Shown piece after piece: positions 2,348 through 21,834 of a stretch of 64,000 nucleotides of DNA. A program made the translations under genes and the position numbers. The stretch spans positions 248,001-312,000 of the forward strand of contig JAMPAI010000003.1 in the NCBI GenBank assembly GCA_023667315.1. The letters are read 5' to 3'. Source of the DNA: Ruminococcus flavefaciens. GTDB lineage: Bacteria; Bacteroidota; Bacteroidia; Bacteroidales; P3. Position 1 is the stretch's first letter, and each line of letters begins with the position of its first letter. Under the pieces are notes generated by a model that made no database searches, had not been told where the DNA came from, and saw nothing but the letters and a program-made list of their open reading frames with translations.

Positions 2348-3118
2348 TTACGATAAAAAGTCCTGTATGTCGTCGTGCGCCGTTTCCTCTTCGGTCATGG
2401 CCTCTTCTTCAGGTGCATTGTCCGCTTCCTCCACTTCCTCCTCAGGGTCTTCTTCCACGTCTTCCTGCGGGAGCGGTTCCTGCGGCAGCGGCGGATATTT
2501 GGCCAGGATCTCGTCGGTGCGCAGTCGGGAGTCGTGGCGCAGGGCGTTGAAGATTTCAAGATCCTGCAGCCCGTGCAGCTTCTCCGCCGTTTGGCGGTCA
2601 TCTTTCTCGGAACGGTACGGTTGACGCAGGTTCTGTTCCACCTCCGTCACCAGGCGTTCTTCTTCCAAGGCCTGTTGCATGTCCTGCTGTTCGAATATCC
2701 ACTCGTCGTCCACGTCCACGATTGCCATGGGCATCGACTTGGCCGGCATGAAGTCGGGAACGGCTTCGGGAACTGGCTCGGGAGCGGGCGACGGTTCAGG
2801 TTCAGATTCAGGCTCAGGAAACGCGACAGGTTCGGGGACGACATCCGGCTGTTTCACTTCTTCCTCCCGGTCGTTCCTTTCGGTGTTTTCCCCGGCGGCG
2901 GGTTCCTGTACGGGCGCCGGCGCGGCCTTGGCAACCGCCGACTGCCTGGAGACACCCAGGCAGTCTTCCATGCTTACCGAAGACGGGGCGTTTTTTGGGG
3001 TGGCATCGTGGCCGTTGCCGAGGGCGTTCACGGCACCGCTTATCTCCTGCCGGAAATAGAACAGGGTGAACACCGTCCACACGAGCAAGGCCAGGACTAT
3101 GATTGCGCTATTGGTCAT
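2348..3118 (-). CDS. DUF4122-like conjugal transfer protein (TraD position)
   Basis: A 256-residue protein with one N-terminal membrane helix (about residues 4-24), a long Pro/Glu-rich low-complexity linker (roughly 60-120), a conserved-looking block around VDVDDEWIFEQQD, and a strongly acidic C-terminus. Topology and operon place fit the DUF4122 family found between the DUF3408 and DUF4134 genes of Bacteroides CTns. The Pro/Glu repeats make the opposite strand look open, but that is a shadow. The start overlaps the upstream gene by 11 bp. The family number is from memory and less certain than the operon assignment. Confidence 0.7.
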   Translation of the reverse strand: MTNSAIIVLALLVWTVFTLFYFRQEISGAVNALGNGHDATPKNAPSSVSMEDCLGVSRQSAVAKAAPAPVQEPAAGENTERNDREEEVKQPDVVPEPVAFPEPESEPEPSPAPEPVPEAVPDFMPAKSMPMAIVDVDDEWIFEQQDMQQALEEERLVTEVEQNLRQPYRSEKDDRQTAEKLHGLQDLEIFNALRHDSRLRTDEILAKYPPLPQEPLPQEDVEEDPEEEVEEADNAPEEEAMTEEETAHDDIQDFLS

Positions 3119-3599
3119 TGTCGGAGTCGTTGTCCCGTTCCTCCCAGCTCAGGGCGGGACGGGTAAGGGTTTTCAAAACGCCGGCGTGTTGTTCGATATG
3201 GTGGCGCAGCACGTTGTTAACCAACGTGGTGAGCGATACTCCCGTGCAGGTGGCGATAAACCGGAGGTCACGGCTGTTGCGTTGCGACAGCTGCACCCGC
3301 AGCCCGCCCATTTCCTCATCGGTGTCGCGCACCAGGAACGTGTCGTGGTAAGCGGCATAGTCCATCGCCTTGCCCGCCGTGACGGCGGGACGGACGGAAC
3401 CCGCCGCATCCTTCTTCTTCCTTCCCGGCCGTTTCTTCTCCTGCGGTGCCGGTGCTGCTTCGGTTTTGGGTGCCGGCTCCTCCGCCACGGGCGGTTCCGG
3501 CACTTCCGGCAAGGGTTGGATCTGAATCTGCGAACGGTTCATCTTGGCCAGCAGCGCATCCATGCTGCTGTTGCCTATAGGGCTTGTGTGGGTTGACAT
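3108..3599 (-). CDS. DUF3408-like conjugation protein (TraB position)
   Basis: A 163-residue protein starting at MSTHTSPIG; a longer reading from 3737 lies inside the ParA gene and is not protein-like. It has a Pro/Ala-rich and basic linker (KKRPGRKKKD) and a C-terminal part with ribbon-helix-helix character (about residues 98-140, including GVSLTTLVNNVL). DUF3408 proteins occupy this place directly after ParA in Bacteroides CTns. A DNA-binding role as ParA partner is inference. The start overlaps the 3' end of the ParA gene by 25 bp, indicating coupling. It is a natural candidate to bind the repeat arrays next to the operon. Confidence 0.78.
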   Translation of the reverse strand: MSTHTSPIGNSSMDALLAKMNRSQIQIQPLPEVPEPPVAEEPAPKTEAAPAPQEKKRPGRKKKDAAGSVRPAVTAGKAMDYAAYHDTFLVRDTDEEMGGLRVQLSQRNSRDLRFIATCTGVSLTTLVNNVLRHHIEQHAGVLKTLTRPALSWEERDNDSDNDQ

Positions 3600-4351
3600 A
3601 TCGAGATGATTTCGTTGGTGAGGGAACTGATGTGCAGCTCGCTGGCCGTACCGGGCGTCATGGGGAGCAGGGTGCTGCGGTAGATGGTGTTGGTGTCGAG
3701 GGCCTCTTTCGAGAATTTCACCGACTTGGGGATCCACGTGTCCATGAACCGCATGCCGGCGGCGGCGAAGGCGTCCCGGTATTGTTCGATAATCTTGTCC
3801 TGCTTGGTGCGGGCGTCCACCTGCGTGAGGAAATAGCGGATGTCTTTCATCCTACAGCGGTCGCGGAACTCTTCCTTGCTTTTGAGTTTCATCATGAGGT
3901 CGTGGAACGAGATGGTGCTTTCGATCACGACCCGGTCGGGAATCACGGGCACGAAGAAATAATCCACGTCGAGCAGGGTCTGCAGGGTTTCTGGCTGGTT
4001 CACGCTGCCTGGCAGGTCGATCAGGATCACCTGAAGGTCGGCGGCGGGGATGCGCGAGAGGATGGCCGAGGCCGTGGCGTTGTGGGATTCGGTGCCGGTC
4101 TTGAAGATGGGATAGGTTCCGAAGTCGTGTTTTGCGTAGAAGTTCCGGCACAAATCGGAGAGGGTCGGGGAGGTGGACAAGGCTTTCTCCTCTCTGTCGC
4201 GCAGACCGCTGAGGCTGTGCTGAGGAAAGTCGGCGTCGATGGCCAGGCAGCGCAAGGCGTGCACATAGTGTAGTTGTCCCGCAACCATGCCCGTGAGCGT
4301 GGTTTTCCCCACCCCTCCTTTCTGTGTTGCAATGGATATGGTGACTGACAT
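3575..4351 (-). CDS. ParA-family ATPase (TraA position of CTn tra operon)
   Basis: A 258-residue ParA/MinD-type ATPase. The ATG at 4351 is chosen over a TTG further upstream because the protein then begins five residues before the first beta strand. The deviant Walker A motif KGGVGKTT is at residues 11-18, and a Walker B-like segment ILIDLPGS follows. It heads the minus-strand tra operon. In Bacteroides CTns this protein (often TraA) is required for or stimulates transfer. An octanucleotide repeat array begins about 190 bp upstream of its start, which invites a partition-like or DNA-positioning model; that link is inference. Confidence 0.88.
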   Translation of the reverse strand: MSVTISIATQKGGVGKTTLTGMVAGQLHYVHALRCLAIDADFPQHSLSGLRDREEKALSTSPTLSDLCRNFYAKHDFGTYPIFKTGTESHNATASAILSRIPAADLQVILIDLPGSVNQPETLQTLLDVDYFFVPVIPDRVVIESTISFHDLMMKLKSKEEFRDRCRMKDIRYFLTQVDARTKQDKIIEQYRDAFAAAGMRFMDTWIPKSVKFSKEALDTNTIYRSTLLPMTPGTASELHISSLTNEIISICQPTQAL

Positions 4352-4429: not shown

Positions 4430-4543
4430 CAAAACTTTCTGAAATTTTCTGAGATTTTCGATTGATGAAAGTTTTGTGTTTGTAAGTAATTGTTTTATAA
4501 TGAAAAATAAATTTTCAAGTTGCATGAAAATTTTTGGCAGAAT

Positions 4544-4695
4544 GGATGTCTGGATGAATGGACAGACGGCTAAAAGTTTGCATGGCGATATGTACATATG
4601 TACGTGCGGACAAACGGATGTATGTACATACGGTAAAACCGCCATAGGTACATATGTACAAAATGCCATATGTACATACGGCGACACTGCCATAA
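4544..4695 (+). repeat. Octanucleotide tandem array 1 (19 degenerate 8-bp units)
   Basis: From 4544 the sequence can be cut into 19 consecutive 8-bp units. Examples are GGATGAAT (4552), GGACAGAC (4560), GTACATAT (4592 and 4648), GTACATAC (4624 and 4672) and TGCCATAT (4664). By hand count the second base is G or T in 19 of 19 units and the third is A or C in 17 of 19. All six GTAC words start at multiples of 8 bp from one another. The array ends just before the ribosome-binding site of the 44-residue membrane protein. The stretch 4352-4543 holds no gene I can support, only AT-rich promoter-like DNA. Small reading frames crossing the array on both strands are judged non-coding. Confidence 0.85.
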
Positions 4696-4708: not shown

Positions 4709-4843
4709 ATGAGCGTGATAGTGTGCTGCCTTATCGGCGTGGCTGTGGCCGCGATTGTCGTCTATATGGCGAGGGTAGGGAAAGAAAAGGCGGCGATTGC
4801 CCGCCAGCTCCGCAAGGTTGCGGGAAAAAAGAAACAGCCATGA
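4709..4843 (+). CDS. Small single-span membrane protein coupled to methyltransferase
   Basis: A 44-codon gene starting MSVIVCCLIG and ending GKKKQP. It has one hydrophobic helix (about residues 3-22) followed by a basic tail, so the tail is probably cytoplasmic. A purine-rich ribosome-binding site (AAAAGGAG, 4695-4702) is well placed. Its TGA (4841-4843) overlaps the ATG of the methyltransferase (4840-4842) in an ATGA junction, arguing for real translation and coupling. I recognise no family. It may only serve translational coupling or may anchor a partner at the membrane. Confidence 0.6.
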   Translation: MSVIVCCLIGVAVAAIVVYMARVGKEKAAIARQLRKVAGKKKQP

Positions 4844-6330
4844 AACTGTTATACATAGACTTGTTCTGCGGTGCCGGTGGCACGAGTACCGGTGTGGAAT
4901 CCGCCCGTTTGGACGGCATGCAATGCGCCAAGGTGATCGCCTGTGTGAACCACGACAAGAACGCCATCGCCAGCCATGCGGCCAACCATCCCGATGCGAT
5001 GCACTTTACCGAGGATATCCGCACCCTGCAGCTCTCGCCGCTCGTGGCACACGCCGAACGCATGAAGATGCAGTATCCGGACGCCAAGGTGGTGCTGTGG
5101 GCTTCGCTGGAATGTACCAACTTCAGCAAGGCCAAGGGCGGCCAGCCGCGCGATGCGGATAGCCGCACCCTGGCCGAACACCTGTTCCGCTACATAGAGG
5201 CCCTGAATCCCGACTTTATCCAGATAGAGAATGTGGAGGAATTCATGTCGTGGGGCGATATGGACGAGAACGGCAAGCCGATATCCCGCGATAAGGGAAA
5301 GTGTTACGTGCGGTGGTGCAACCGTGTACGCCGCTACGGCTATGACTTCGAGCACAGGATTTTGAATGCCGCCGACTACGGTGCTTATACGACAAGGAAA
5401 CGTTTTTTCGGCATATTCGCCAAAAGGGGGCTTCCGATCGTGTTTCCCGCAGCGACACACTGCAAGGGCGGAAAGGCCGATATGTTCGGCTCGCTCGAAA
5501 AGTGGAAGCCGGTGCGGGATGTGCTCGATTTCTCCGATTTGGGAAACTCTATATTCCGAGAAAGGGCTCTTTCCGAGAACACCCTCGAACGTATTTACGC
5601 TGGGCTTGTCCGGTTTGTCGCGGGCGGGCAGGAAGCGTTCTTATCCAAACAATACAGCGGCAGCCCTGGGGGCAAGAATGTATCCATCAATGGCCCTGCG
5701 GGAACCATCACCTGCAGGGATCACCATATGTTCGTCTCCGCCTACTATGGAAATGGACACAACCACTCCATAGAAGCGCCCGCCCCGACCCTCACCACCA
5801 AGGATCGGCTTTCCGTGGTGACCGCTTTCTTCGGCAACGAGTATTCGGGAGGCGGGCAGTTGTCAAGTCTGGAAAATCCATGCCCGGCGGTGTTGACCAA
5901 GCCGAAACAGGCTTTGATTTCGGTGCGGCAGCACTATCTGCTCAACCCGCAGTATCGGAGCTTCGGGCGCGATATCGACGACCCTTGTTTCACGCTTATC
6001 GCCCGTATGGACAAACGTCCCCCTTGTCTTATCACGACAGATCCGGGGAGCCTTCCTGATATATCCTTGCACTCCGATGATAGTCCTATGACGCGCAGAA
6101 TCAAAAGCTTCATGCGGCTCTATCATATCATCGACATCTATATGCGGATGCTTAAGACGGACGAGTTGAAACGCATAATGGGCTTCCCTGAGGACTATGT
6201 GCTGATCGGAACTCAGGAGGAACAGAAAAAATACATAGGAAACGCCGTGGAGGTGAATATGTCGCGGGCATTGTGCGAGGCACTCTGCCAACGCCTCGCT
6301 GAAACGAAATCATTATTGAAAACCGCTTAA
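4840..6330 (+). CDS. DNA (cytosine-5-)-methyltransferase, Dcm family
   Basis: A 496-residue C5-methyltransferase that transfers a methyl group from S-adenosylmethionine to cytosine in DNA. Motif I DLFCGAGG is at residues 7-14. The catalytic cysteine is C92 in ECTNFSKAKGG, where the usual PC is EC. Motif VI ENV is at 130-132 and motif X (IGNAVEVNMSRAL) is near the C-terminus. An earlier in-frame start at 4723 was rejected because it lies inside the preceding small gene. No restriction endonuclease is adjacent, so this is probably an orphan methylase protecting the ICE from host restriction; that role is inference. It lies between the two octamer arrays. Confidence 0.9.
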   Translation: MKLLYIDLFCGAGGTSTGVESARLDGMQCAKVIACVNHDKNAIASHAANHPDAMHFTEDIRTLQLSPLVAHAERMKMQYPDAKVVLWASLECTNFSKAKGGQPRDADSRTLAEHLFRYIEALNPDFIQIENVEEFMSWGDMDENGKPISRDKGKCYVRWCNRVRRYGYDFEHRILNAADYGAYTTRKRFFGIFAKRGLPIVFPAATHCKGGKADMFGSLEKWKPVRDVLDFSDLGNSIFRERALSENTLERIYAGLVRFVAGGQEAFLSKQYSGSPGGKNVSINGPAGTITCRDHHMFVSAYYGNGHNHSIEAPAPTLTTKDRLSVVTAFFGNEYSGGGQLSSLENPCPAVLTKPKQALISVRQHYLLNPQYRSFGRDIDDPCFTLIARMDKRPPCLITTDPGSLPDISLHSDDSPMTRRIKSFMRLYHIIDIYMRMLKTDELKRIMGFPEDYVLIGTQEEQKKYIGNAVEVNMSRALCEALCQRLAETKSLLKTA

Positions 6331-6333
6331 AAG

Positions 6334-6690
6334 ATGAAAGATATACTTGATGCCCAATACCCAAATGTCATGAACGGAAATAAGCCAAAGAAAGTGTTTG
6401 TGTCGCTGCCGATTACGGGGCGCGAGGAAGCCGCCCGGCAGGAAGCGCGGATGGCCAAGGAACGTCTTGTGGAACAGGGCTACGAGGTGGTTACACCCTT
6501 CGAGTGCGCGCCGGATCCCGGCCGGCATATCGGCTATTACATCGGGCGTTGCATCGAGGCGTTGCTTCAATGCGATGCCATCTGTCAGAAGCCGCAGTCC
6601 GAAAGCGCGGGCTGCCGCCTGGAATCCTGTGCGATCGAGCTCTACAACCTCCAGCGTGTTTCATGGCCGCTTGAAAATCCGCTTGTATGA
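6334..6690 (+). CDS. DUF4406 protein (nucleoside deoxyribosyltransferase-like fold)
   Basis: A 118-residue protein beginning MKDILDAQYP. The core KKVFVSLPITGR followed by a helix and GYEVVTPFE is typical of DUF4406, which is related to nucleoside 2-deoxyribosyltransferases. The later segment HIGYYIGRCIEALLQCDAI also fits. It begins 3 bp after the methyltransferase stop and overlaps the next gene by 4 bp, so all three form one operon. Members are common in phages and ICEs; a role in modified-nucleotide metabolism or anti-restriction is plausible but unproven. Confidence 0.75.
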   Translation: MKDILDAQYPNVMNGNKPKKVFVSLPITGREEAARQEARMAKERLVEQGYEVVTPFECAPDPGRHIGYYIGRCIEALLQCDAICQKPQSESAGCRLESCAIELYNLQRVSWPLENPLV

Positions 6691-7319
6691 CCCCGCTTCA
6701 TGAAATAAACAGCCGCTTCAACGAGCAGTTGCGGCGACAGGCGCAAGGACTTCTGCCGGGTGGATATGTCTATAAGTTAGGTAGACCCGGCGGCATCCTG
6801 CAGAGTGCCGGCATCCCCGATTTACCCATAGAAATGGCTTCGGCGCGACTGCTGCACAAGTCGAACCAGGAGAACCATCCGTTCAACCTATCGGAAGTGG
6901 AGAATCTTCCGCGGGCCATCCAGAATCCGTTGGCCGTGTTCCGCAGCGCCACCCATATCGGGAGCAACGTGATCCTTACGGAGTTGCGTCAAGGGGATAA
7001 GAACTTCGTGGTGGCCTTGCAGACCAACCGGCAGGAAGGCAAGGTGTTGGTGAACAGTGTGCGGAGCGTACACTATCGTAGTTCGAATCTACATATCGTC
7101 AATTGGATCAATGCTGGCCTGGCGGATTACCTGAAGCCTATATCAATGGAAATATGGTTGGAGGACTTACGAAAAGAGCTCCATTCTAAACCGCAGTACA
7201 ATTCCGCGGACGTTAGAATGAAGCTCAGTTCGTGTGCAAAGGTAATACAAAATTTTAAAAACCCGGAAATCGTTGTCCGGCAGCACAAGGTGAAGCGTGT
7301 GCGCGGACGGGGATTGTAA
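6687..7319 (+). CDS. MuF-C-like (phage BECR-fold related) domain protein
   Basis: A 210-residue single-domain protein with the conserved sequence run LGRPGGILQSAGIPDLPIEM, then HPFNLSEVENL, NPLAVFRSATHIGSNVILTEL, FVVALQTN, and a C-terminal NSADV...VIQNFKNPE block. I recognise this as the domain found at the C-terminus of phage MuF-like and polyvalent proteins, thought to be related to the barnase/EndoU/colicin/RelE nuclease fold. The same domain occurs in two other genes of this ICE (16988 and inside 18103). The ATGA junction with the DUF4406 gene shows coupling. Toxin or effector activity is inference. Confidence 0.68.
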   Translation: MTPLHEINSRFNEQLRRQAQGLLPGGYVYKLGRPGGILQSAGIPDLPIEMASARLLHKSNQENHPFNLSEVENLPRAIQNPLAVFRSATHIGSNVILTELRQGDKNFVVALQTNRQEGKVLVNSVRSVHYRSSNLHIVNWINAGLADYLKPISMEIWLEDLRKELHSKPQYNSADVRMKLSSCAKVIQNFKNPEIVVRQHKVKRVRGRGL

Positions 7320-7335
7320 CTCTTCTTTCCATGCC

Positions 7336-7783
7336 GACCCGAAATCCAAATAGCCATTCATCCATACAGCCGTATCGCCATACGGCACTGCCGCCATCGG
7401 GCGGTTTGTATTTCCGTCCGTATGGCGTTATGGCGCAATGTACAAACGTACATACAGCCGTAGGTACGTTTGGCCATACGGACGAATGTACAAATGTACA
7501 AACGTCCGTATGGCGGTATGGCTGTTTGTACAAATGGCGCAATGTACAAATGGCTATATGTCCATTCAGCCGTATGGATATACATCCCGATGGCGTTACA
7601 TCCCAAAGGCGGGACGGCACAATGTACACAAGGACTTCCGTACAGATGGCCTTATGGCTGAAAGTCCATATGGACAAAGGTACGCAGGGACAGACGGCAT
7701 ATTGTCCTTTTATCCGTATGTACACACCTCCGTATGTCCGTATGGCAAAAAGGCCTTTTGGCTTTTCTGCCGTACAGCCACAC
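7336..7783 (+). repeat. Octanucleotide tandem array 2 (about 56 degenerate 8-bp units)
   Basis: From 7336 to about 7783 the DNA is continuous 8-bp units without spacers. Examples are GTACAAAC (7440, 7496), GGCCATAC (7472), GTACAAAT (7488, 7528, 7544), GTCCGTAT (7416, 7504, 7736), GGCGCAAT (7432, 7536) and AGCCGTAT (7368, 7568). By hand count base 1 is G in 42 of 56 units, base 2 is G or T in 55 of 56, base 3 is A or C in 56 of 56, and base 4 is C in 39 of 56; bases 5-8 vary more. After about 7784 the register is lost, although GTAC words continue to about 7870. The rest of 7784-7973 shows no gene. All six frames stay open because 8 and 3 share no factor. No protein is called here. Confidence 0.88.
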
Positions 7784-7973
7784 CTCCCTGTGGTGTCCGT
7801 ACAAAGTGTGTGTACACGAAAAAAAAACGGCAAGATGTGTTTTTGTACGTACAAATCTTCGATTGTCCGTACAAAAACCACTTGCCACCTCAGGCCGGTG
7901 GCGGCCAAAACGATTGCTCCCAAGTCGCAATCGGACGGAATAACCAGAATGTTTAACCTTAAAAAATAAGAAA

Positions 7974-8378
7974 ATGTACAGAGAAATCTTATTCAGGGGA
8001 AAGGTGTTGAATCCTTCACCTGAGACCACGCCGAAAAACGGGTGGGTCTATGGCTACTACGTAAAGGATTTAGAAGCCGGAAAGATCGTTCACCGGATAG
8101 TTAATGAGGATTGTGACTGGAATGTTGATCCCGAAACATTATGCCAAAACACCGGTGTTAAAGATATAAATGGAGTGGAGATTTTTGAGGGGGATATAAT
8201 CCGATATCAGTGTTTTGGACCCTGTTTCTATGAAGAAGGAATGAGATTAATAGATGAAAGGCCAAATTTTTCTTTATATCTTGACGATAACGAGGTCGTC
8301 GGCAACATCCACGATACTCCCGGTTTCTTTGAAGAATTGAAAAAGAAAAAACAAATCCCCGAAGATCATGAAGGCTGA
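7974..8378 (+). CDS. YopX family protein
   Basis: A 134-residue protein with the YopX pattern: REILFRGK at the N-terminus, GWVYGYYV near residue 24, NTGVKDINGVEIFEGDII in the middle, and VVGNIHDTPGFF near the end. YopX proteins are frequent in phages and mobile elements and their function is unknown. It starts right after the second array's decayed tail and overlaps the next small gene by 11 bp, so it opens a short operon leading to the mobilisation genes. Confidence 0.88.
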   Translation: MYREILFRGKVLNPSPETTPKNGWVYGYYVKDLEAGKIVHRIVNEDCDWNVDPETLCQNTGVKDINGVEIFEGDIIRYQCFGPCFYEEGMRLIDERPNFSLYLDDNEVVGNIHDTPGFFEELKKKKQIPEDHEG

Positions 8379-8589
8379 TATCGATGTATTGAGATACCTG
8401 CGCTATTGGCGCACGCCGGCCGAAATAAAGAGTCGTTTCGGCATCAGGAACCCGGAGGCGTATATGGCACAACTGCAGGCGGACGGCTACGGAATAATGA
8501 AGGAGAAACGGGAGCTGGGGGTGCTTATGGTGCCGTGCTTCCGGTGGAACGGACAATGGAAAAGGCCGGAAGGAGGTGCGGATGTATAG
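8368..8589 (+). CDS. Small hypothetical protein, winged-helix-like
   Basis: A 73-residue protein (MKADIDVLRYLRYWRTP). The segment RTPAEIKSRFGIRNPEAYMAQLQADGYGI resembles a helix-turn-helix followed by a short wing, so it might bind DNA; this is a weak inference. It overlaps the YopX gene by 11 bp at its start and the following gene by 8 bp at its end, which supports translation as part of the operon. I recognise no named family. Confidence 0.6.
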   Translation: MKADIDVLRYLRYWRTPAEIKSRFGIRNPEAYMAQLQADGYGIMKEKRELGVLMVPCFRWNGQWKRPEGGADV

Positions 8590-8767
8590 GATAACGAAAG
8601 CGACCGTGGTGAAAGGCGGCAAGGCGGAGATGACGTTCGACGAGGTCTTGGAAGTGCAGGATATAGAGGATTACAGACAGGAGATAATGGAACGTTATAT
8701 CGCCGCCATCATGGCCAAGGTTCAGGTGTATTTGCAGTACAAGGAAATCCCTAAAGACAACGGCTGA
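8582..8767 (+). CDS. Small hypothetical protein
   Basis: A 61-residue acidic protein read from the ATG at 8582. A strong AGGAGG (8571-8576) sits 5 bp upstream, favouring this start over a GTG at 8576. The sequence contains a beta-strand-like start (YRITKATVVKGG) and a long predicted helix (YRQEIMERYIAAIMAKVQVYL). It overlaps the previous gene and ends 11 bp before the MobC-like gene. No family recognised. Confidence 0.6.
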   Translation: MYRITKATVVKGGKAEMTFDEVLEVQDIEDYRQEIMERYIAAIMAKVQVYLQYKEIPKDNG

Positions 8768-8778
8768 ATCGGAAAAAC

Positions 8779-9174
8779 ATGAAAGAGGAAAAGAAAACCA
8801 AACGGATTGAGATACGCGTGAGCGAGGACGAATATGCGCGTATCAAGCATAACGCCGACCGATACAAAGACGGGAATATCGGAGAGTTTATCCGTCAGAT
8901 TGCCGTCTATGGCCAGGTTACCGTGGTGCAGAAACCCGCCAGGTCCAACCCGAATCTGGCGGCGGTGTACGACCTGATGAAGGAGTACCGCAAGGTAGGG
9001 ACGAACTACAACCAGGTGGTGAGGACGCTCCATCAGCAGGCCGCCAACCCCATGCCGGAACTGGTGGCGAGGAATCTGGAACGCCTGGCGGTGCATACCG
9101 ACCAATTGATAGCCCTTACCAAGGGAATCGAAAAACTGTTTGCCGATGGTGATCAAGATAACCAAGTCCACTAA
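8779..9174 (+). CDS. MobC-like relaxosome accessory protein
   Basis: A 131-residue basic protein with an N-terminal ribbon-helix-helix-like segment (KRIEIRVSEDEYARIKHNAD) and the downstream motif VGTNYNQVVRTLHQ, characteristic of bacterial mobilisation MobC proteins. Such proteins bind oriT and help the relaxase nick DNA. Its end overlaps the relaxase gene by 29 bp, as is usual for mobC-relaxase pairs. The oriT should be close by; the region upstream, including array 2, is a candidate. Confidence 0.82.
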   Translation: MKEEKKTKRIEIRVSEDEYARIKHNADRYKDGNIGEFIRQIAVYGQVTVVQKPARSNPNLAAVYDLMKEYRKVGTNYNQVVRTLHQQAANPMPELVARNLERLAVHTDQLIALTKGIEKLFADGDQDNQVH

Positions 9175-10459
9175 AATCGATGCCGTGGTGGGCTACAACA
9201 TGGAGAAGGTGGCCAAGGGTGAGGCGGTCTTGCTGGACAGCGACAGGATACCGGTGCGGTTCAACGAGGAAGGAATCCCCTACAAGCAGGAGATGGTGGA
9301 CGTTTTCGACGACCGCCGCCAGCTTAACGCACGGGTGCGGAATCCGGTGACCCATATCTCGCTAAACCCCGACCCGAAGGACATCTGTACGGACGGCCTT
9401 TTGACCAAAATGGCGCATGAACTTCTGGATGAACTGGGGTATGGCGACCAGCCGTGCGTCATCTTCAAGCACACCGACATCGAGCGGCATCACGTCCATA
9501 TCGTGGTGTCGAACATCGATGAACGGGGTCGGAAGATCGGCGACAGCCACGAGCGTTACCGCGCCAACCGTATCAGGAAAGGGTTGGAGGAGAAATACCG
9601 CCTGCACAAGGCCGAGGAATCCGAACGTCAATCCGTGGCGGTGGTGGAGAAAACGCAGGCGGGCAAGGCGGAGGTGGCGTGGCAGGTGGCGGGCGTATGC
9701 TCCCGTCTGTTGGCGGATTACCGTTTTACCGGCTTCGGCGAGTTCCGCACCTTCATGGAGGAATGCGGGGTCAGGATGAACGTTGTCGATACGGAAGCCG
9801 GCAAAGGGCTTTCCTACGCCGTCTCGGACGGGGACAATGGGCAACGCACGCCCTGGGTGCCGGCTTCGGAACTCGGCAAGGAGTTTATGTACGATGGCGT
9901 GACCCAAAAGGTGGAGCAGTCCCGGTTGGAGGCCAAGGCCTATTGCCGGCGGCAGGGTCTGCGGAAACTGATGGAAGGACACCTGCAGGCGAAGGACTTG
10001 CAGGATCTGAACAGGAAAGCGGCGGCGGTCGGGATGAGCTATGTGTTCCGCTTCACCCTGGACGGAAAGCCGTATGGCTGTACGGTCATCGACCAGAAAC
10101 GACAGGTGGTGTTCAACGCCTCGCAGGTGCACCGCTCGCTTTCGGCGCAGGCCTGGCAGAAGTTCTTCGACAACCGGCCTATCCCGGACAGGCTGGTTGT
10201 CGGGAGGAAGATAGACCGGGAGAGCAAGCAGGACACGGACGTATGGCAGAAGATAGACACGCTGCTGGACGGCATCCTACCTCGGGAAGAAAAACGGCGC
10301 TACCTGCCGCAATATGCGCCTAATTCGCCAAACCCGGCTTCAGGCTGGACGCAGGGCGGTGCCAAGGCCGTTCCCAAGCAGGAACGCGCCAACACCCATT
10401 TCCACTTCGAGGACGAAGAGGAGGAAGAAGAACGCAGAAGAAAACATAGAAGATTGTAA
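9146..10459 (+). CDS. MOBP-type relaxase/mobilisation nuclease
   Basis: A 437-residue relaxase that nicks oriT and pilots the transferred strand. The ATG at 9146 is preferred over a TTG six bases earlier. The metal-binding pattern is visible as FKHTDIERHHVHIVV, with H109, D111, H116 and H118. Y17 in VVGYNMEK is a likely nucleophile. The C-terminus ends in an acidic-basic stretch (EDEEEEEERRRKHRRL). It sits between the MobC-like gene and the coupling protein, giving a complete mobilisation module. Confidence 0.9.
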   Translation: MVIKITKSTKIDAVVGYNMEKVAKGEAVLLDSDRIPVRFNEEGIPYKQEMVDVFDDRRQLNARVRNPVTHISLNPDPKDICTDGLLTKMAHELLDELGYGDQPCVIFKHTDIERHHVHIVVSNIDERGRKIGDSHERYRANRIRKGLEEKYRLHKAEESERQSVAVVEKTQAGKAEVAWQVAGVCSRLLADYRFTGFGEFRTFMEECGVRMNVVDTEAGKGLSYAVSDGDNGQRTPWVPASELGKEFMYDGVTQKVEQSRLEAKAYCRRQGLRKLMEGHLQAKDLQDLNRKAAAVGMSYVFRFTLDGKPYGCTVIDQKRQVVFNASQVHRSLSAQAWQKFFDNRPIPDRLVVGRKIDRESKQDTDVWQKIDTLLDGILPREEKRRYLPQYAPNSPNPASGWTQGGAKAVPKQERANTHFHFEDEEEEEERRRKHRRL

Positions 10460-10478: not shown

Positions 10479-12491
10479 ATGCAAGACACGACAGACGACA
10501 AGACCATCGAGAAATTCATGGGGGTGCTTCGGATTATCGCCGTGGTATTCCTTTTCATTCACCTGTATTATTTCATGTTCCCGGTATGGAAGGAGGCCGG
10601 GGTGTATCACGCTTTCGTCAACAAGATATTGATGCGGTTACAGACACTCTACGGCATGTATTCGACTACCTGGCCCACCAAGATCATCTGTTTCCTGTTC
10701 CTGGCGGTCGGCTGTATGGGGGTTTCGGGCAAGAAGAAGGAAGACCTGTCGTGGCAGGACGTGATGTGGCGTATCGTGGTCGGCTTCCTGCTGTTTTTCG
10801 GAAGCGGCGTTTTCTTTGTGCATGGCTACAGGCTGTCGCATACGCTGTACATTATATACGGGGTGGTGACGTCCACCGGCTTCATCTTCCTGATGTGGGG
10901 CGGCATCCTGGCCTCGCGCCTGATCCGGGTCAACCTGATGGAAGACCAATTCAATGATGAAAACGAGAGTTTCATGCAAGAGAGAAAGAGGAAAACGAAC
11001 AAAAATTCGATAAATATTCCCACCCAATTCTATTATCGTGGGAAATGGCGGAACGGCTGGATTAATGTCGTGAATCCGTTTCGGGCAAGTATGGTGCTGG
11101 GAACACCTGGTTCTGGCAAGTCCTTCGCAGTGATCAATAACTACATTAAGCAGTGTATTGAGAAAGGTTTCGCGATGTATATCTATGACTATAAGTTTCC
11201 AGCCCTTTCCGATATAGCAATCAATCACTATCGTCTACACTCGAAAGGATACAAGATTAATCCATCTGTCTATGTACTCAATTTTGACGATCCGCGCCGT
11301 TCCCACCGATGCAATCCCATAAACCCGAAATTGATGACGGACATAACGGATGCCTACGAGGCCGCCTATACCATCATGCTCAATCTGAACAAGACATGGA
11401 TTCAGAAACAGGGCGAATTTTTCGTGGAATCTCCTATTACACTCGTATCTGCCATTATATGGTTTTTGAAAATCTATAAAGGTGGTAGATATTGCACCTT
11501 CCCGCACGTTATTCAACTGCTGAACGTGCCATATACTGAACTTTTCCCGATATTAATGAGTTATGGCGAGCTGGAAGCCTACCTGTCGCCTTTTGTAGGT
11601 GCATGGAAAGGCAATGCACAAGACCAGTTGCAGGGGCAGTTGGCCTCCGCGCAAATCCCCTTGTCGCGTATGTCGTCGCCCCAACTATATTGGGTAATGT
11701 CGGGGGATGATTTTACGCTCGATATCAATAATCCGAAAGAACCAAAAATTCTGTGCGTGGGCAACAATCCCGATAGGCAAGCTATATATGGGGCCGCATT
11801 GGGGCTTTATAACGGTCGTATAGCAAAACTCATCAATAAGCAGGGTCAGTTGAAGAGCTGTGTGTTGATTGATGAATTGCCCACTATGTATTTCAAAGGT
11901 CTTGATAATCTTGTCAATACAGCCCGTAGTAATAAGGTCGCCGTCTGTCTCGGCTTTCAGGACTTCTCGCAACTGAATCGGGATTACGGAGATAAGGAAA
12001 GTAAAGTTATCCAGAATACAGTGGGTAATCTATTTTCGGGGCAGGTGGTGGGAGAAACCGCAGACTTGATCTCCAAACGGTTTGGAAAGGTACTACAGCG
12101 CAGGCAGAGCCTATCCATCAACAAACATGATACATCGGTATCTATCTCCACCCAGTTGGATTCATTGATACCGGCCTCGAAAATATCAAATTTGTCGCAA
12201 GGTATGTTTGTTGGAACCGTGGTGGATGATTTTGGACAGAAAATCAAGCAAAAGATGTTTAATGCCGCGATAGTCGTAGATGTAGAGAAAGTTAAAGCCG
12301 AAGAAAAGCAGTATCAAAAGATACCGGTAATCACCGACTTTACAGATGAGAACGGCGAGGATAAGATGCAAGAGACCATTATGGCGAACTACCACCGCAT
12401 CGTGGCCGAGACCAAGCAGCTCGTCAAGGACGAAATTGCCCGCATCGAAGCCGACCCCGACCTCTGCCACCTGCTGGAGGATGCGGAGTAG
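10479..12491 (+). CDS. Type IV coupling protein (VirD4/TraG-like, YWFCY N-terminus)
   Basis: A 670-residue inner-membrane ATPase that hands the relaxase-DNA complex to the mating channel. The real start is MQDTTDDK at 10479, since the open frame before it overlaps the relaxase gene. Four hydrophobic helices occupy roughly residues 18-150, and the N-terminus resembles the YWFCY domain of Bacteroides coupling proteins. Walker A GTPGSGKS is near residue 208, and a Walker B-like LIDELPTMYF is near 463. The 5' part is GC-richer than the lower-GC ATPase part, suggesting mosaic origin. Confidence 0.9.
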   Translation: MQDTTDDKTIEKFMGVLRIIAVVFLFIHLYYFMFPVWKEAGVYHAFVNKILMRLQTLYGMYSTTWPTKIICFLFLAVGCMGVSGKKKEDLSWQDVMWRIVVGFLLFFGSGVFFVHGYRLSHTLYIIYGVVTSTGFIFLMWGGILASRLIRVNLMEDQFNDENESFMQERKRKTNKNSINIPTQFYYRGKWRNGWINVVNPFRASMVLGTPGSGKSFAVINNYIKQCIEKGFAMYIYDYKFPALSDIAINHYRLHSKGYKINPSVYVLNFDDPRRSHRCNPINPKLMTDITDAYEAAYTIMLNLNKTWIQKQGEFFVESPITLVSAIIWFLKIYKGGRYCTFPHVIQLLNVPYTELFPILMSYGELEAYLSPFVGAWKGNAQDQLQGQLASAQIPLSRMSSPQLYWVMSGDDFTLDINNPKEPKILCVGNNPDRQAIYGAALGLYNGRIAKLINKQGQLKSCVLIDELPTMYFKGLDNLVNTARSNKVAVCLGFQDFSQLNRDYGDKESKVIQNTVGNLFSGQVVGETADLISKRFGKVLQRRQSLSINKHDTSVSISTQLDSLIPASKISNLSQGMFVGTVVDDFGQKIKQKMFNAAIVVDVEKVKAEEKQYQKIPVITDFTDENGEDKMQETIMANYHRIVAETKQLVKDEIARIEADPDLCHLLEDAE

Positions 12492-16987: not shown

Positions 16988-18079
16988 ATGGAAGAATTTG
17001 GCCAACAATTCGATATAAACAAAAAGTTTGACGAAGAGTTAGATATGCAAATTAAGGGAGATTTGCCCTCCAACCACGTTTACGAACTTGGAAGGCCTTG
17101 CGCTATTTTAAAAAGCACAGGCGTTCCAGACCTTCCCATACAACTCAGTGCGAAGAGGTTGCTTGATAAGGCTACTCTGTTTGGACACGATTTTGACCTT
17201 GTGGAAATAAAGGGGTTGGTAAATAGACTTAACAGCCCTGTTGCGGTATTTGCATATGGAGACCCTAAAAAGGCTCAAAATGTTATTCTTGAGTTAAAAC
17301 AAAATAACAAGCACTTTTTAGTCGGTCTCGCGCTTAACCCCGAAATTCAAGGGCGAAAACTTGAAGTCAACAGTATTAGGAATATTTTCCCGAAAGAAGA
17401 TACAGAGTGGGTAAACTGGATTGGGCAAGGAAAAGCGCTGTACCTAAACCAAAAAGAAATCCAAGTCTTGATAGATCAACTGCAGACGATTCCCGCAGAC
17501 GTGAACTACCTAAACTTGGATTTCGTTGCAAATGTAGTTAAAAACTTTGAAAATCCGAAAATGGAAGAAGAAATCAAGCAAGAGGATAATGTTTACGAAA
17601 CCCGGTACGAGAACGGGCAATTGAAAAGAAGGGTGCATTATAACAGTTCCGGAGAACGGGATGGGTTATACGAACATTGGTACGAGAATGGACAGATGTC
17701 TACGCGGTACAATTTAAAGGACGGCAAGTTGGAAGGATTGTGCGAGTCGTGGCATATGAACGGCCAGAGAGAAACAAGGAGGAACTATAAAAACGGGAAC
17801 CCTGACGGGTTGTCCGAATCATGGTATAGGACGGGACAGATGTATCTGAGGGAGAATTATAAAAATAGGCAACTGGACGGGTTGCGTGAAATGTGGCATC
17901 GAAACGGGAAGCCTGCGGCGCGGGCATACTATAAGGATGACATGATGCATGGATTGTATGAAGAATGGGATCCAAACGGTAAGTTGACGGAGCGGGCCGT
18001 TTATAGGGAGGGGAAAAGAATACCCTGCGCCAAGAAACAGGAAGTTGCCCCGAATGGGAAGCGTAGTCTCGGATTGTAG
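16988..18079 (+). CDS. MuF-C-like domain fused to MORN-like repeats
   Basis: A 363-residue protein. Residues 5-195 form a MuF-C-like domain (LGRPCAILKSTGVPDLPIQL, NSPVAVFAYGDPKKAQNVIL, FVANVVKNFENPK), clearly diverged from the two other copies. Residues about 205-350 are six 23-24-residue repeats of the MORN_2 variant type (YENGQMSTRYNLKDGKLEGL, HMNGQRETRRNYKNGNPDGL). Such repeats are often found beside effectors or antitoxins. Base composition is lower in GC than the flanking ICE genes, suggesting separate acquisition. Function unknown. Confidence 0.72.
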   Translation: MEEFGQQFDINKKFDEELDMQIKGDLPSNHVYELGRPCAILKSTGVPDLPIQLSAKRLLDKATLFGHDFDLVEIKGLVNRLNSPVAVFAYGDPKKAQNVILELKQNNKHFLVGLALNPEIQGRKLEVNSIRNIFPKEDTEWVNWIGQGKALYLNQKEIQVLIDQLQTIPADVNYLNLDFVANVVKNFENPKMEEEIKQEDNVYETRYENGQLKRRVHYNSSGERDGLYEHWYENGQMSTRYNLKDGKLEGLCESWHMNGQRETRRNYKNGNPDGLSESWYRTGQMYLRENYKNRQLDGLREMWHRNGKPAARAYYKDDMMHGLYEEWDPNGKLTERAVYREGKRIPCAKKQEVAPNGKRSLGL

Positions 18080-18102: not shown

Positions 18103-21100
18103 ATGTACAAGCAACTTGATTTGAATTTTGAAGAGCCGAAGGACGAGGTGAGGTATGATAATCTCTTGATGGAGCCGGAAACGCTCCGCAAAGAGGTCGA
18201 ATTCGCCAACGTGCAGCGCGTGTTTGAGGAAAGCAAGGCGTTTGCGTTCTCGGCTCCGAATAAAGTCACTACGCCGAGAGACGTGGCCTACATATTCAAG
18301 CAATTGGAAACGGTGGCCGTGGAAAATACTTTTGCGGTCTTGGTCAAGGATGACCAGCCGACGGTGATTCACCTCGGGATGGGTTCGTCGAAGGCGTGTC
18401 TGGCCCCTTTTGAGCCAGTGATAGCTGCAGATAAAAAAATCAATGCAGACAAAATATATTTAGTGCATAACCATCCCAGCGGTAATGTGCAGGCGAGTCG
18501 GGAAGATATGGCTTTGCTCAACCAATGGGAGCGGATTTTCGGAAACAGGATGCAGCCGGGAATCATCATCAATACCCGGACAGGCGTGTTCGGCGAGTTT
18601 GTAGATGGAGAGCAGGTAAAATCGGATTTGACGATTGAACCCGGACAGAGGCTATACCCGGTCAAGTTGTATTCCTTTTCCAAGTTGGTGTTTAGTAAAG
18701 ACTATAAAGAAACAGGTATCGTAGCAAATTCTTCCGACGTGGCGGCTTTTCTATCAGGTCAACGGCTGGGTGAAAGGTCTAAATTGGCATACTTGATTTT
18801 GGGACGGAACGGCACAATACAGGCAAATATCCATACGAACTATGATTGTGTCCGTCGGGAAAAAGTGAAGGACTTGGCTCGACAGATTGCAGAAGACTCC
18901 ATTGCGTTCGGGGGACAGCAGGTCATCACATACGGGACAGCGCAGGTCGATCGTTTGCGAATCAAGGAACTCCAGGATGAGCTGTATTGGCGGGGTGTAT
19001 TAATGCAGGATCATGTCAGCATTCGGTTAGATGATGGTAGTCTTGCAAACAGCCTTATGGCGGAATCGGGTTCTATGGATAGGTTGTATAAGTATCAATC
19101 TGCCAATAATGAAGGATGGTTAAGTAGTTTGATGGAACCGGAAATTGGGTATGGCGAGGAGCGGAAATATGGGCAGCTTGCGCTGTCTTTTGACGAACCA
19201 GAGGAGGAAGTACAATATGATCCGTCCGTCTCTGCCGGAATCAGGGAAGACCGAATCAACCGGGGCATTATGACGGAAGAGGAATACCTTGGACTAAAGG
19301 GATACTCCGCAATGGGCTATGCGGAACTGGCTTTGCATAAGGGAAGGCAAAAGACGCAAGGGGCACAGGACAGGGTGGTTAAAAATTACCACGAGCGGGC
19401 AAGGGCTTACGATGAGGAAAGGGTGAGACTGCGCCTGGAATATCGCGAGAAGGCAGGTCGGGGTGAACTGCGAGCCCCCACGCCGGCCGAACAAATTATC
19501 GAACAAGCGAACGGAAATCCCGATTCAGCAGCCACACAGGCGGCCAGACGATCTGCGGAGAAGAGAGGGATAGATTGGAGGGTGCAAAAGAAAGAGAAAA
19601 TCGTAGATGTGAACAGGAGGTTCAATCAAGAATTGCAACTGCAGATTAATGGTGGATTACCCAAGGGACATATATATCGGTTAGGCAGACCAAGCCAAAC
19701 ACTGAAAGGTGCAGGAATCCCGGATTTGCCGATAGAGATGGTGGCAAGCCGTTTGTCGGATAAATCGATGCAGGATAATCATCCGTTTGATTTGTCTGAA
19801 GTACAAAATCTTGTAACCGCCATTCAAAATCCGTTGGCTGTGTTCCGCAGCGCCACCCATATCGGGAGCAATGTCATCCTTACAGAACTGAACCACCATG
19901 GGAAAAACTTTGTTGTTGCCATTCAGACAAACCAAAAGAAAGGTCGAATCGAAATAAATAGTATTCGAAGTGTATATCCTAAAAATAATATAGCGATTGT
20001 CCATTGGATCAAGGACAACTTAGCGGATTATCTCGATAAAAAAAGAATGGCCGAATGGCTTTCCAAACAGCGGTCCAATTCCGCTGACGTTAGAAAACTA
20101 TTCGACCACGCGACAAAATTAGTGCAAAGTTTTGAAAACGCAAAAGAAGAGCAGGAAATCCGTTTCCGCTTCATAGGGGAGAAGGGGGCGGCGAACCTCG
20201 ACAAGGCGGAGGAAGCCACGACCCGTTTGGACAATCTGGCGGTGGCAGAGGAGATGGAGGCCGCGAAGAAAGATGCCGTGGCCATCAAGATGGCCACGGG
20301 CTGGGAACGGGGCGCGGACGGGAAGTGGCGTTACGAGGAACCCGACTTTGAGGTTGATATAAAGGGGCTGGCACGAAAGAATCATCTTTATGATGATTTG
20401 CCTTGGGGAAAGGAATATAATGCGCTTATCGACAAAATCTTTGATGGTGTTGAGTTAACTCCAAGAGAAAATGTCCGATTCGAAGAACTTTCCGTGAGGG
20501 CAGATGAACTGCGGAAAGTTTATGAGGCGGGCGACATCCGCTATCTAGATGATTATGTCAAGGACAAAAAATTGTTTGAGGCGTATCCGAAATTGAAGCA
20601 GGTGCGGTTGGAGATGTATGAGGATCCTAAGGATAACGGGGTTCTTTATACGGGAGCTACCTGGTATGCCGGTCAGAATTTGATACGTGTCAATGAACAA
20701 ACTCTGTCGAACGAGGGTTTCAGGAGCGTTCTGGTGCATGAGGTTCAGCACGCCATACAGGAGATGGAGGGGTTCGCACGGGGTGGTAACCGTAATACTT
20801 ACAGGAATCACCTTGATTCTTTGAAAGAAAAGCATGATGCGTGGTCTATGCTTGAAGAGTTTGACCGCAAACGTAAGGAACTAGGAGAAGAAGCCTTTCC
20901 GATGGAGGTTTATTACGCTGTGCGTGATGAATATCGTTCGCTCGGATTTGAATTCGGTGATGGAGTTTTCCCAAGCCGCGAGGCTTACGACAAAGGGTTT
21001 AATCTTTGGGTGCGGGGGTATGATAAGGAGGGGTATGAAGAAGCGTATAATGAGTATCAAAGCCTTACCGGTAAGTTCGGCCATGGTCTGGGTGATGATC

Positions 21101-21834
21101 GATACAGACAAATCTCGGGCGAGGTTGAATCCCGCAATGTGCAATCGCGTATCGATATGACGCCCGAGCAACGCCGCGCCTCCCTTGCCTCCGAGACCGA
21201 GGACGTGGCGCGGGATAAGCAAATTATGATAGAGGCAAGGGAACAGGTAAGGGACTTATCGGCCAAGCTGCACACGCCGATCCGAGTCATCAAATCGGAT
21301 GATATCCATCACAATGATAAGGATATGGAAAAGCGTATGCGTGCCGGTAAAGGCTGGTACAACACCAGGATGGACGAGGTCATGTTGGTGCTGGACAATC
21401 AGTCTTCAATGGAAGACCTTAAGAAGACGGTTCTTCACGAGGTGGTCGGTCATAAGGGATTGCGTGAAATCATGGGTGAAAAGACCTTCAAGACCATGTG
21501 CGAAAGTGTGTACCGATCGATGAATCCTGCCGTACAGCAATCCTACCTGCGGCAATACGGCACTCCGGCCATTGCCGGCGAAGAGTTTATCGCGCATGCG
21601 GCCGAACACGGCACGACGGCCTCCATGTGGCAGGCGATCACTTCGGCCCTCAAGGTAGCCCTCAACAGCATGGGAATACACGTCAATTACACCTACAGGG
21701 AGGTGGCGGCCTTGCTGCAGCGTAGCCGCCGCCATCTGGAAAACAAGCAGACGGCCATGCAACCGTCCGTTCGTCCAGTATCAGGTGAGAAAAAACAGAC
21801 CGCCAAGCCCCGCAAGCGGGGCAGGGGTATTTAA
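18103..21834 (+). CDS. Large polyvalent protein: JAMM/RadC-like, MuF-C-like and metallopeptidase-like domains
   Basis: A 1243-residue multidomain protein. The N-terminal region has a RadC/JAMM-type metal motif VHNHPSGN at residues 121-128, with D135 and a possible E74. Residues about 505-680 are a MuF-C-like domain very close to the 6687 gene. Around 728-745 is GWERGADGKWRYEEPD, as in large polyvalent-protein domains, with an HEVQH zincin motif at 879-883. A second HEVVGH signature is at 1112-1117, one residue longer than classic HExxH. This architecture fits polyvalent proteins of phages and conjugative elements, thought to enter the recipient with the DNA and counter its defences. Activities are predicted from motifs only. 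Confidence 0.85.
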   Translation: MYKQLDLNFEEPKDEVRYDNLLMEPETLRKEVEFANVQRVFEESKAFAFSAPNKVTTPRDVAYIFKQLETVAVENTFAVLVKDDQPTVIHLGMGSSKACLAPFEPVIAADKKINADKIYLVHNHPSGNVQASREDMALLNQWERIFGNRMQPGIIINTRTGVFGEFVDGEQVKSDLTIEPGQRLYPVKLYSFSKLVFSKDYKETGIVANSSDVAAFLSGQRLGERSKLAYLILGRNGTIQANIHTNYDCVRREKVKDLARQIAEDSIAFGGQQVITYGTAQVDRLRIKELQDELYWRGVLMQDHVSIRLDDGSLANSLMAESGSMDRLYKYQSANNEGWLSSLMEPEIGYGEERKYGQLALSFDEPEEEVQYDPSVSAGIREDRINRGIMTEEEYLGLKGYSAMGYAELALHKGRQKTQGAQDRVVKNYHERARAYDEERVRLRLEYREKAGRGELRAPTPAEQIIEQANGNPDSAATQAARRSAEKRGIDWRVQKKEKIVDVNRRFNQELQLQINGGLPKGHIYRLGRPSQTLKGAGIPDLPIEMVASRLSDKSMQDNHPFDLSEVQNLVTAIQNPLAVFRSATHIGSNVILTELNHHGKNFVVAIQTNQKKGRIEINSIRSVYPKNNIAIVHWIKDNLADYLDKKRMAEWLSKQRSNSADVRKLFDHATKLVQSFENAKEEQEIRFRFIGEKGAANLDKAEEATTRLDNLAVAEEMEAAKKDAVAIKMATGWERGADGKWRYEEPDFEVDIKGLARKNHLYDDLPWGKEYNALIDKIFDGVELTPRENVRFEELSVRADELRKVYEAGDIRYLDDYVKDKKLFEAYPKLKQVRLEMYEDPKDNGVLYTGATWYAGQNLIRVNEQTLSNEGFRSVLVHEVQHAIQEMEGFARGGNRNTYRNHLDSLKEKHDAWSMLEEFDRKRKELGEEAFPMEVYYAVRDEYRSLGFEFGDGVFPSREAYDKGFNLWVRGYDKEGYEEAYNEYQSLTGKFGHGLGDDRYRQISGEVESRNVQSRIDMTPEQRRASLASETEDVARDKQIMIEAREQVRDLSAKLHTPIRVIKSDDIHHNDKDMEKRMRAGKGWYNTRMDEVMLVLDNQSSMEDLKKTVLHEVVGHKGLREIMGEKTFKTMCESVYRSMNPAVQQSYLRQYGTPAIAGEEFIAHAAEHGTTASMWQAITSALKVALNSMGIHVNYTYREVAALLQRSRRHLENKQTAMQPSVRPVSGEKKQTAKPRKRGRGI

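Follow-up and report, generated by a model that had tools for sequence, protein, structure and literature searches.

An octamer lattice beside an oriT-like block in CTnDOT-type ICEs, a candidate docking site for DNA transfer

The delta/omega system of pSM19035-type plasmids consists of a ParA-like protein (delta), a ribbon-helix-helix (RHH) protein (omega) and spacerless heptads. In the met boxes, RHH dimers of MetJ lie side by side on 8-bp palindromic boxes at an 8-bp pitch. CTnDOT-like ICEs are major vehicles of gene transfer in gut Bacteroidota, antibiotic resistance included, and to our knowledge it is poorly known how they choose and deliver their own DNA. In the available parts of two publications, VirC1/VirC2 with overdrive as well as gonococcal ParA/ParB are described as acting in T4SS DNA transfer (PMC4949242, PMC8716806). 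For CTn341 an oriT, an inverted repeat and a nick site are reported, and the accessible portion of that text mentions no octamer array (PMC5729914).

Here we describe arrays of contiguous degenerate octamers in a 64-kb stretch of DNA (the window) and in related loci. Like delta/omega, the locus has a ParA gene, a putative small DNA binder and contiguous degenerate repeats directly upstream; unlike delta/omega, the unit is 8 bp instead of 7, the arrays are larger, the class of the rule depends on the clade, and the array lies beside an oriT-like block inside the tra/mob region. Met boxes differ in being few and in acting as an operator, with neither ParA nor oriT. The combination of a ParA-like ATPase, a partner and a cis enhancer by an oriT-like site resembles VirC1/VirC2 and overdrive as far as these are covered in the parts available of PMC4949242 and PMC8716806, although the lattice is longer and is regular; the likeness is one of anatomy. 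Among the open-access publications listed by our literature searches none describes the array, older subscription papers on CTnDOT and CTn341 being outside the coverage. An earlier note on the window had stated that no described counterpart exists; this stands in so far as we found no paper on the array, but ParA/RHH short-repeat sites and VirC/overdrive are clear analogues.

The region concerned is the tra/mob junction of a CTnDOT-type ICE. As in the ICEs of this type (CTnDOT/CTn341) of Bacteroides, tra genes led by ParA and DUF3408 lie beside mobA-C. One side carries, on the minus strand, a ParA-type ATPase in the TraA position (3575-4351, 258 aa from ATG; Pfam CbiA 4e-11, AAA_31 8e-9; 50.7 bits against NCBIfam ParA_partition, under its cut-off of 180), a DUF3408 protein in the TraB/TraC position (3108-3599; Pfam PF11888, 1.1e-7) and domain matches to DUF4134 (TraE position, 2013-2327) and DUF4133 (TraF position, 1680-2000). 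Divergently, on the plus strand, follow MobA, a NikA-like RHH relaxosome protein (8779-9174; Pfam MobC_2 and NikA-like above cut-off, NCBIfam MobA at 42.9 bits under cut-off, and a weak RHH_1 match), the MobB relaxase (9140-10459; NF041325, 263 bits, under the cut-off of 400) and the MobC coupling protein (10479-12491; NF041326, 982 bits, above cut-off). A YopX-family gene (7974-8378, plus strand) is found between the oriT-like block and mobA, and other small ORFs are also located between array 1 and mobA. The element is a divergent member of its type: its ParA is at most 35% identical to those compared and sits on a very long branch of the ParA tree.

Array 1 (7344-7783, no strand assigned) is the oriT-proximal one and consists of 55 contiguous octamers with the consensus G-K-M-C-R-T-A-Y. 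The earlier note had let it start at 7336, and its hand counts over the resulting 56 octamers prove exact: base 2 is G or T in 55, base 3 is A or C in all 56, base 1 is G in 42 and base 4 is C in 39. Likewise, all 11 GTAC words starting from 7440 to 7720 fall in one register modulo 8. The first of these octamers does not fit (score -3.4), and the array begins at 7344; a cyclic HMM sets the limits at 7345-7793, with the end at about the latter position. That bases 5-8 vary was too strong a statement, as base 7 is A in 43 of the 56 octamers, 47 have T or C as base 8 and 47 have T or A as base 6. The period stands out clearly in the lag-8 autocorrelation, with an identity of 0.486 against 0.248 +/- 0.021 in 1000 dinucleotide shuffles (z 11, highest shuffle 0.334), and identities at lags 16, 24, 32 and 40 are 0.45-0.51. 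The position-specific base matrix gives a column information of 5.50 bits against 0.27 +/- 0.08 in shuffles (highest value 0.64). A 16-unit GKMC score reaches 53 out of 64 only at the places of array 1 and array 2 in the 64 kb; its maximum in one shuffled window was 39. The odd octamer run in the window is real. Its consensus is nearly palindromic (r = 0.94 with the reverse complement, column-permutation p = 0.034).

Array 2 (4536-4695, no strand assigned; HMM limits 4535-4694), absent from the earlier note, sits just upstream of parA and has 20 octamers of the same consensus. The two arrays are 2.65 kb apart, and their registers are offset by 2808 bp, which is divisible by 8. Between them, as if inserted into a single array, lie three plus-strand genes (4840-7319) for a C5-methyltransferase (4840-6330), a DUF4406 protein (6334-6690) and a MuF_C-domain protein (6687-7319). 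One iterated profile of the last protein also matches 16988-18079 and 18103-21834, so that the three form a repeated cargo family.

The array is not a CRISPR, being built of contiguous degenerate octamers and not of near-identical repeats with spacers, nor is it a simple satellite, as TRF detects only short fragments; on both points we agree with the earlier note. A phage origin was considered and dropped: no DNA in a phage collection resembles positions 7000-8800 of the window, and no relative of the window ParA was found on a viral contig. Two readings had been offered for a fixed frame with a variable tail. Nothing points to a record-like sequence. A fixed-pitch lattice to which protein would bind is the best reading, and the place beside ParA, the oriT-like block and mob genes is conserved.

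Similar arrays are present at the same place in relatives; the earlier note had named their absence as a refutation. The first set consists of the best 80 of 452 ParA loci, retrieved with an alignment of 11 ParA proteins, and 79 of these 80 have a period-8 array immediately before parA. The main scan compared periods 5, 7, 8, 10, 11 and 13, with 6, 9 and 12 omitted because codons produce them. Period 8 is the best of the six over the whole locus in those 79, and its score near the parA start is 0.26-1.03 against at most 0.23 anywhere else in the 80 loci. The single failure, L108, scores 0.16, and L133 reaches 0.26 with only 90 bp before parA. The second set comprises 20 of 44 ParA places in other genomes (mostly weaker matches, from a sample of 393 genomes) together with L198. 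Here a fixed criterion finds the array in 18 of 21 loci, with two borderline misses (L201, 0.24; L213, 0.21) and one locus that has none (L203, 0.07); L209, L210 and L218 duplicate loci of the first set wholly or nearly, and 15 of 18 is the count without these. On plasmids, all five fetched loci (of 57 matching records) show a period-8 peak of 0.39-0.60, period 4 being nearly equal in three of them. Most arrays have 13-45 units, and the window, with 20 + 55, is the largest case among the loci surveyed. About 215 bp upstream of ParA, L204 carries a near-perfect TYGAGGTA octamer satellite of freshly expanded look. L199 and L200 carry 40-bp super-repeats of five octamers about 340 bp upstream of ParA, which suggests growth by block duplication.

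An inverted-repeat block lies about 15-25 bp beyond array 1, at 7808-7927 on the minus strand, and contains a 16-nt inverted repeat. Model R1, made from 27 such blocks with that of the window excluded, has its sole match in the 64 kb here (40.4 bits, E 6.1e-8; search with E up to 1). Related loci have a conserved block of this kind in the stretch from mobA to the array: 65 of 75 loci are matched by a strict regular expression, R1 matches it in 8 of 8 when given eight of the ten loci thus missed, and it is matched in 21 of 21 second-set loci. In the window and in second-set loci the array adjoins the block. Three Hymenobacter plasmids have the array and no R1 match, and L108 and L203 have ParA and the oriT-like block without a clear array. 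The conserved block is presumably oriT and would correspond to the one reported for CTn341. The canonical order is mobA - oriT - array - parA - DUF3408, which the window keeps, with genes on both sides of array 1.

The spacing of these parts bears on two alternatives. Over 75 loci, the median gap between the end of the array and the start of parA is 17 bp, where one would expect a promoter, and two solitary DUF3408 genes also have an array just upstream. It might be argued, then, that DUF3408 or another regulator represses the parA/tra operon from the array, which would be an operator with no role in transport. We consider this unlikely. The usual 13-45 units are many more than an operator needs, the larger array of the window is about 3 kb from parA and adjoins the oriT-like block, and some satellite arrays lie in regions without tra gene matches. 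Alternatively, the lattice could be bound by the NikA-like RHH protein MobA as a part of the relaxosome, and not by DUF3408. MobA has a recognisable NikA-like domain, and 75 of 80 loci have a divergent mobA. The array follows the parA/DUF3408 side, however, the median distance to the mobA start being 393 bp, and L049, which has no MobA match, keeps the oriT-like block, the array and DUF3408; a lattice of MobA therefore appears quite improbable.

The constant of the lattice is its pitch of 8. Many loci being near duplicates, the 82 arrays of the first set (two of them from the window) were reduced for the rule analysis to 35 non-redundant ones, L108, L133 and L143 being dropped here and in the pair analyses. 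The best-scoring class rule is Y-R in 19, K-M in 5 and of mixed classes in 11 of the 35, whereas by compliance the 70 distinct arrays divide into 34 K-M and 36 Y-R. The strict two-base K-M rule of the earlier note is thus not general, since other clades keep Y-R. K-M and Y-R alike are classes that complement themselves. Over the 35 arrays the mean of the best reverse-complement correlation is 0.74, compared with 0.54 when columns are permuted, a modest symmetry with p<0.05 in 12 of the 35 arrays and p<0.01 in none. Class-preserving changes are enriched in the rule columns of K-M arrays (43 of 93 against 70 of 263, p 7e-4) and of Y-R arrays (88 of 116 against 196 of 353, p 1e-4), these p values being rough because nearest-neighbour pairs share sequences. 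In 30 of 31 gapped pairs, nearest-neighbour arrays differ in net length by a multiple of 4, a result that is supportive rather than strict because repeat alignment favours in-phase gaps. Modulo 3 the same differences divide 9/13/9. Three MAFFT alignments that slid blocks by whole units were set aside. In agreement with the earlier note, the array is therefore not a coding repeat: long ORFs span it, yet 4-bp indels shift the frame. In 16 of the 31 pairs the net indel is 4 modulo 8, which hints at a 4-bp sub-lattice.

That the array is neutral tandem-repeat DNA, lengthened by slippage and bound by no protein, is a reading to which we attach next to no credence. Growth by duplication does occur, as the satellite of L204 and the super-repeats of L199 and L200 indicate. 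Against neutrality stand the nearly universal position and the class-preserving bias of the substitutions, as well as the finding that two window arrays at such a distance have one consensus and that similar arrays exist in other elements.

Probably the lattice is bound by DUF3408, the likeliest candidate. In 80 of 81 loci, window included, a DUF3408 gene follows ParA within 3.5 kb, and in the window it comes directly after ParA; in the exception, L080, the sequence ends just after ParA. L049 and L050 have DUF3408 without a ParA match and keep the order oriT-like block - array - DUF3408; the array directly upstream of the solitary gene scores 0.42 against 0.25 elsewhere in L049 and 0.37 against 0.21 in L050. 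An initial DUF3408 search was positive in 14 of 198 genomes of the order, and 33 regions were taken (five tandem DUF3408 genes inside fetched regions are not counted separately). At a single automatic threshold, arrays were found in 8 of the 12 regions that contain ParA and only in L049 among the 21 without a ParA match; 19 of these 21 show no clear array. L032, L034 and L055 have DUF3408 and the oriT-like block, with neither a ParA match nor a clear array. Read by eye, the C-terminus of DUF3408, in the window as elsewhere, has a strand-helix-helix pattern, and we take an RHH fold to be plausible. A sequence search of DUF3408 against the PDB gave no match, none of the Pfam families matched by 41 members is an RHH family (25 of 26 listed), and the DUF3408 profile matched neither the MobA profile nor, with hhalign, omega at a significant level (probability 0.25%). 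A recognition code, with Ser/Thr in the presumed beta-strand of K-M systems and Arg in that of Y-R systems (by eye), was considered and rejected: it holds at the level of clades, but L095, L100 and L143 break it, L114 is unclear and the solitary cases L049 and L050 apparently break it too. As only 5 changes of rule class are required on the ParA tree, compared with 24.7 when labels are shuffled, the residue pattern is a lead and not a code.

The ParA gene itself brings in the main rival to transfer docking. A small ParA ATPase encoded first (258 aa, CbiA/AAA_31) and contiguous short repeats upstream of parA, a putative centromere, are features of type Ib partition cassettes; a ParA-like ATPase together with a candidate partner, DUF3408, in 80 of 81 loci is VirC-like. 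Period 8 outscores period 7 in 79 first-set and 18 second-set loci, and the omega-type 7-bp heptad was not encountered there. The same scan gives period 7 just before parA/omega in two of three omega-type loci (L219 and L221) and no period-7 signal in the third, the lactococcal omega-like L220, whose period-8 signal was dropped as it stems from a hairpin-like stretch downstream of the gene. Since period 7 is recovered in two delta-omega loci by the same scan, the anatomy of the array is equally that of a type Ib centromere. On this account, type Ib-like ParA and DUF3408 would segregate the excised circle or a plasmid via the array, and the conjugation genes would be mere neighbours. The contiguous short repeats immediately upstream of parA, which is followed by a small putative DNA binder, agree with this, as does the occurrence of the array in Hymenobacter and Bacteroides plasmids. 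Nonetheless, we find a partition centromere possible but rather doubtful. The array is tightly tied to the oriT-like block, and its unit is 8 bp, not 7. Moreover, elements without ParA matches also have arrays, in some cases along with an oriT-like block, and ParA is missing from two units made up of oriT-like block, array and DUF3408; for both, a role in transfer is simpler. Transfer docking and partition may both be true.

Short arrays in other elements were sought from the window outwards. Profile R2, made from seven 64-bp blocks of the window, was run on its own 2.93-Mb genome, and 150 of 476 candidates were scored; among these, the only matches outside the window are two copies of one element (E 2.4e-8). 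This is a 5.9-kb integrative element (L230; G000:C22:104000-123500) in two tandem copies, 100% identical over the 4265 bp compared, with a mini-array in the code of the window (7 of 7 printed units follow the K-M rule). Its genes are for an integrase, an AbiEii-type protein and a relaxase-like protein of 373 aa, and the array is just downstream of the last. The 373-aa protein has no Pfam or NCBIfam match; its His motif is presumably a relaxase motif. R1 finds no oriT-like block in L230, no DNA match to the element exists in 190 family genomes or plasmids, and none of 17 other relatives of its relaxase has a clear array (L246 reaches 0.45). The genome has a single DUF3408 and a single ParA of this kind, both within the window.

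In 17 genomes with a CTnDOT-like ICE, BLAST with one AT-rich array gave ICE arrays plus shorter matches elsewhere. We examined 16 of the latter places, a part of the total: two are ICEs, two have no array (L282, L285), and the 12 others are arrays in regions without ParA or DUF3408 matches. L272 is an IME with integrase, relaxase, a Toprim protein and about 18 octamers. L274, L275 and L284 have an array and an oriT-like block and give no ParA, DUF3408, MobA/B/C or relaxase matches. L275 and L284, and with them L274, are candidate minimal satellites of CTnDOT-type ICEs. L275 and L284 have RteC and integrase-like genes (in L275 Pfam sees only N-terminal integrase domains, and the integrases of L284 were judged by eye), and 114-116 bp separate their array from the oriT-like block; in L274 this distance is 1.4 kb. 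The RteC/oriT-like satellites carry the code of a Bacteroides ICE. L276-L281 and L283 form one family with weak arrays (0.48-0.68), and R1 finds no oriT-like block in L272, L276-L281, L283 or L286. As a control, a window array used as BLAST query in the same 17 genomes gave nothing below E 0.034. In 149 genomes of the order, 5 places match the AT-rich query at E<=1e-4, a background that keeps BLAST values alone from proving the weak satellite cases. Compliance with K-M is seen in seven satellite copies and is partly expected, as these were found by similarity.

A lattice that lies at an oriT-like block together with ParA and DUF3408, and that recurs in elements which would have to borrow a T4SS, is consistent with a transfer docking site. 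We see an even chance that the array is such a site in cis, bound by DUF3408, engaged by ParA and marking the DNA of the ICE for the transfer machine. Beside the origin of transfer, DUF3408 homodimers would bind side by side, one dimer per 8 bp, and would read only the chemical class of a few phased bases. Binding of this kind would account for the constant spacing, the lax sequence, the leaning towards strand symmetry and the substitutions that preserve class. ParA, as an ATPase, would then engage the coated lattice and carry the excised element to the coupling protein and the T4SS, along with the relaxosome at the adjacent oriT, much as VirC1/VirC2 act at overdrive. Small mobilisable elements would copy the local lattice code and so use the same route of delivery. 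Among the observations that count against docking, net indels of 4 modulo 8 make up about half of all, which is awkward for a strict 8-bp dimer pitch, and satellite arrays are not always near an oriT-like block.

More tentatively, and with some leaning against it, the lattice can be regarded as a conjugal address code, in which each ICE marks its DNA by fixing only a base class (keto/amino or purine/pyrimidine) at phased positions, a code that drifts with the ParA/DUF3408 pair of the element and is mimicked by satellites in order to be transported. The class rule would then be a major-groove reading of donors and acceptors by the lattice of dimers. If true, this would be a recognition logic that tolerates nearly any sequence while the phase holds. 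The array is a conserved and seemingly overlooked cis element tied to ParA and DUF3408, and as such it gives DUF3408 a testable role, while the short satellite arrays provide a sequence handle to predict which small element rides which ICE.
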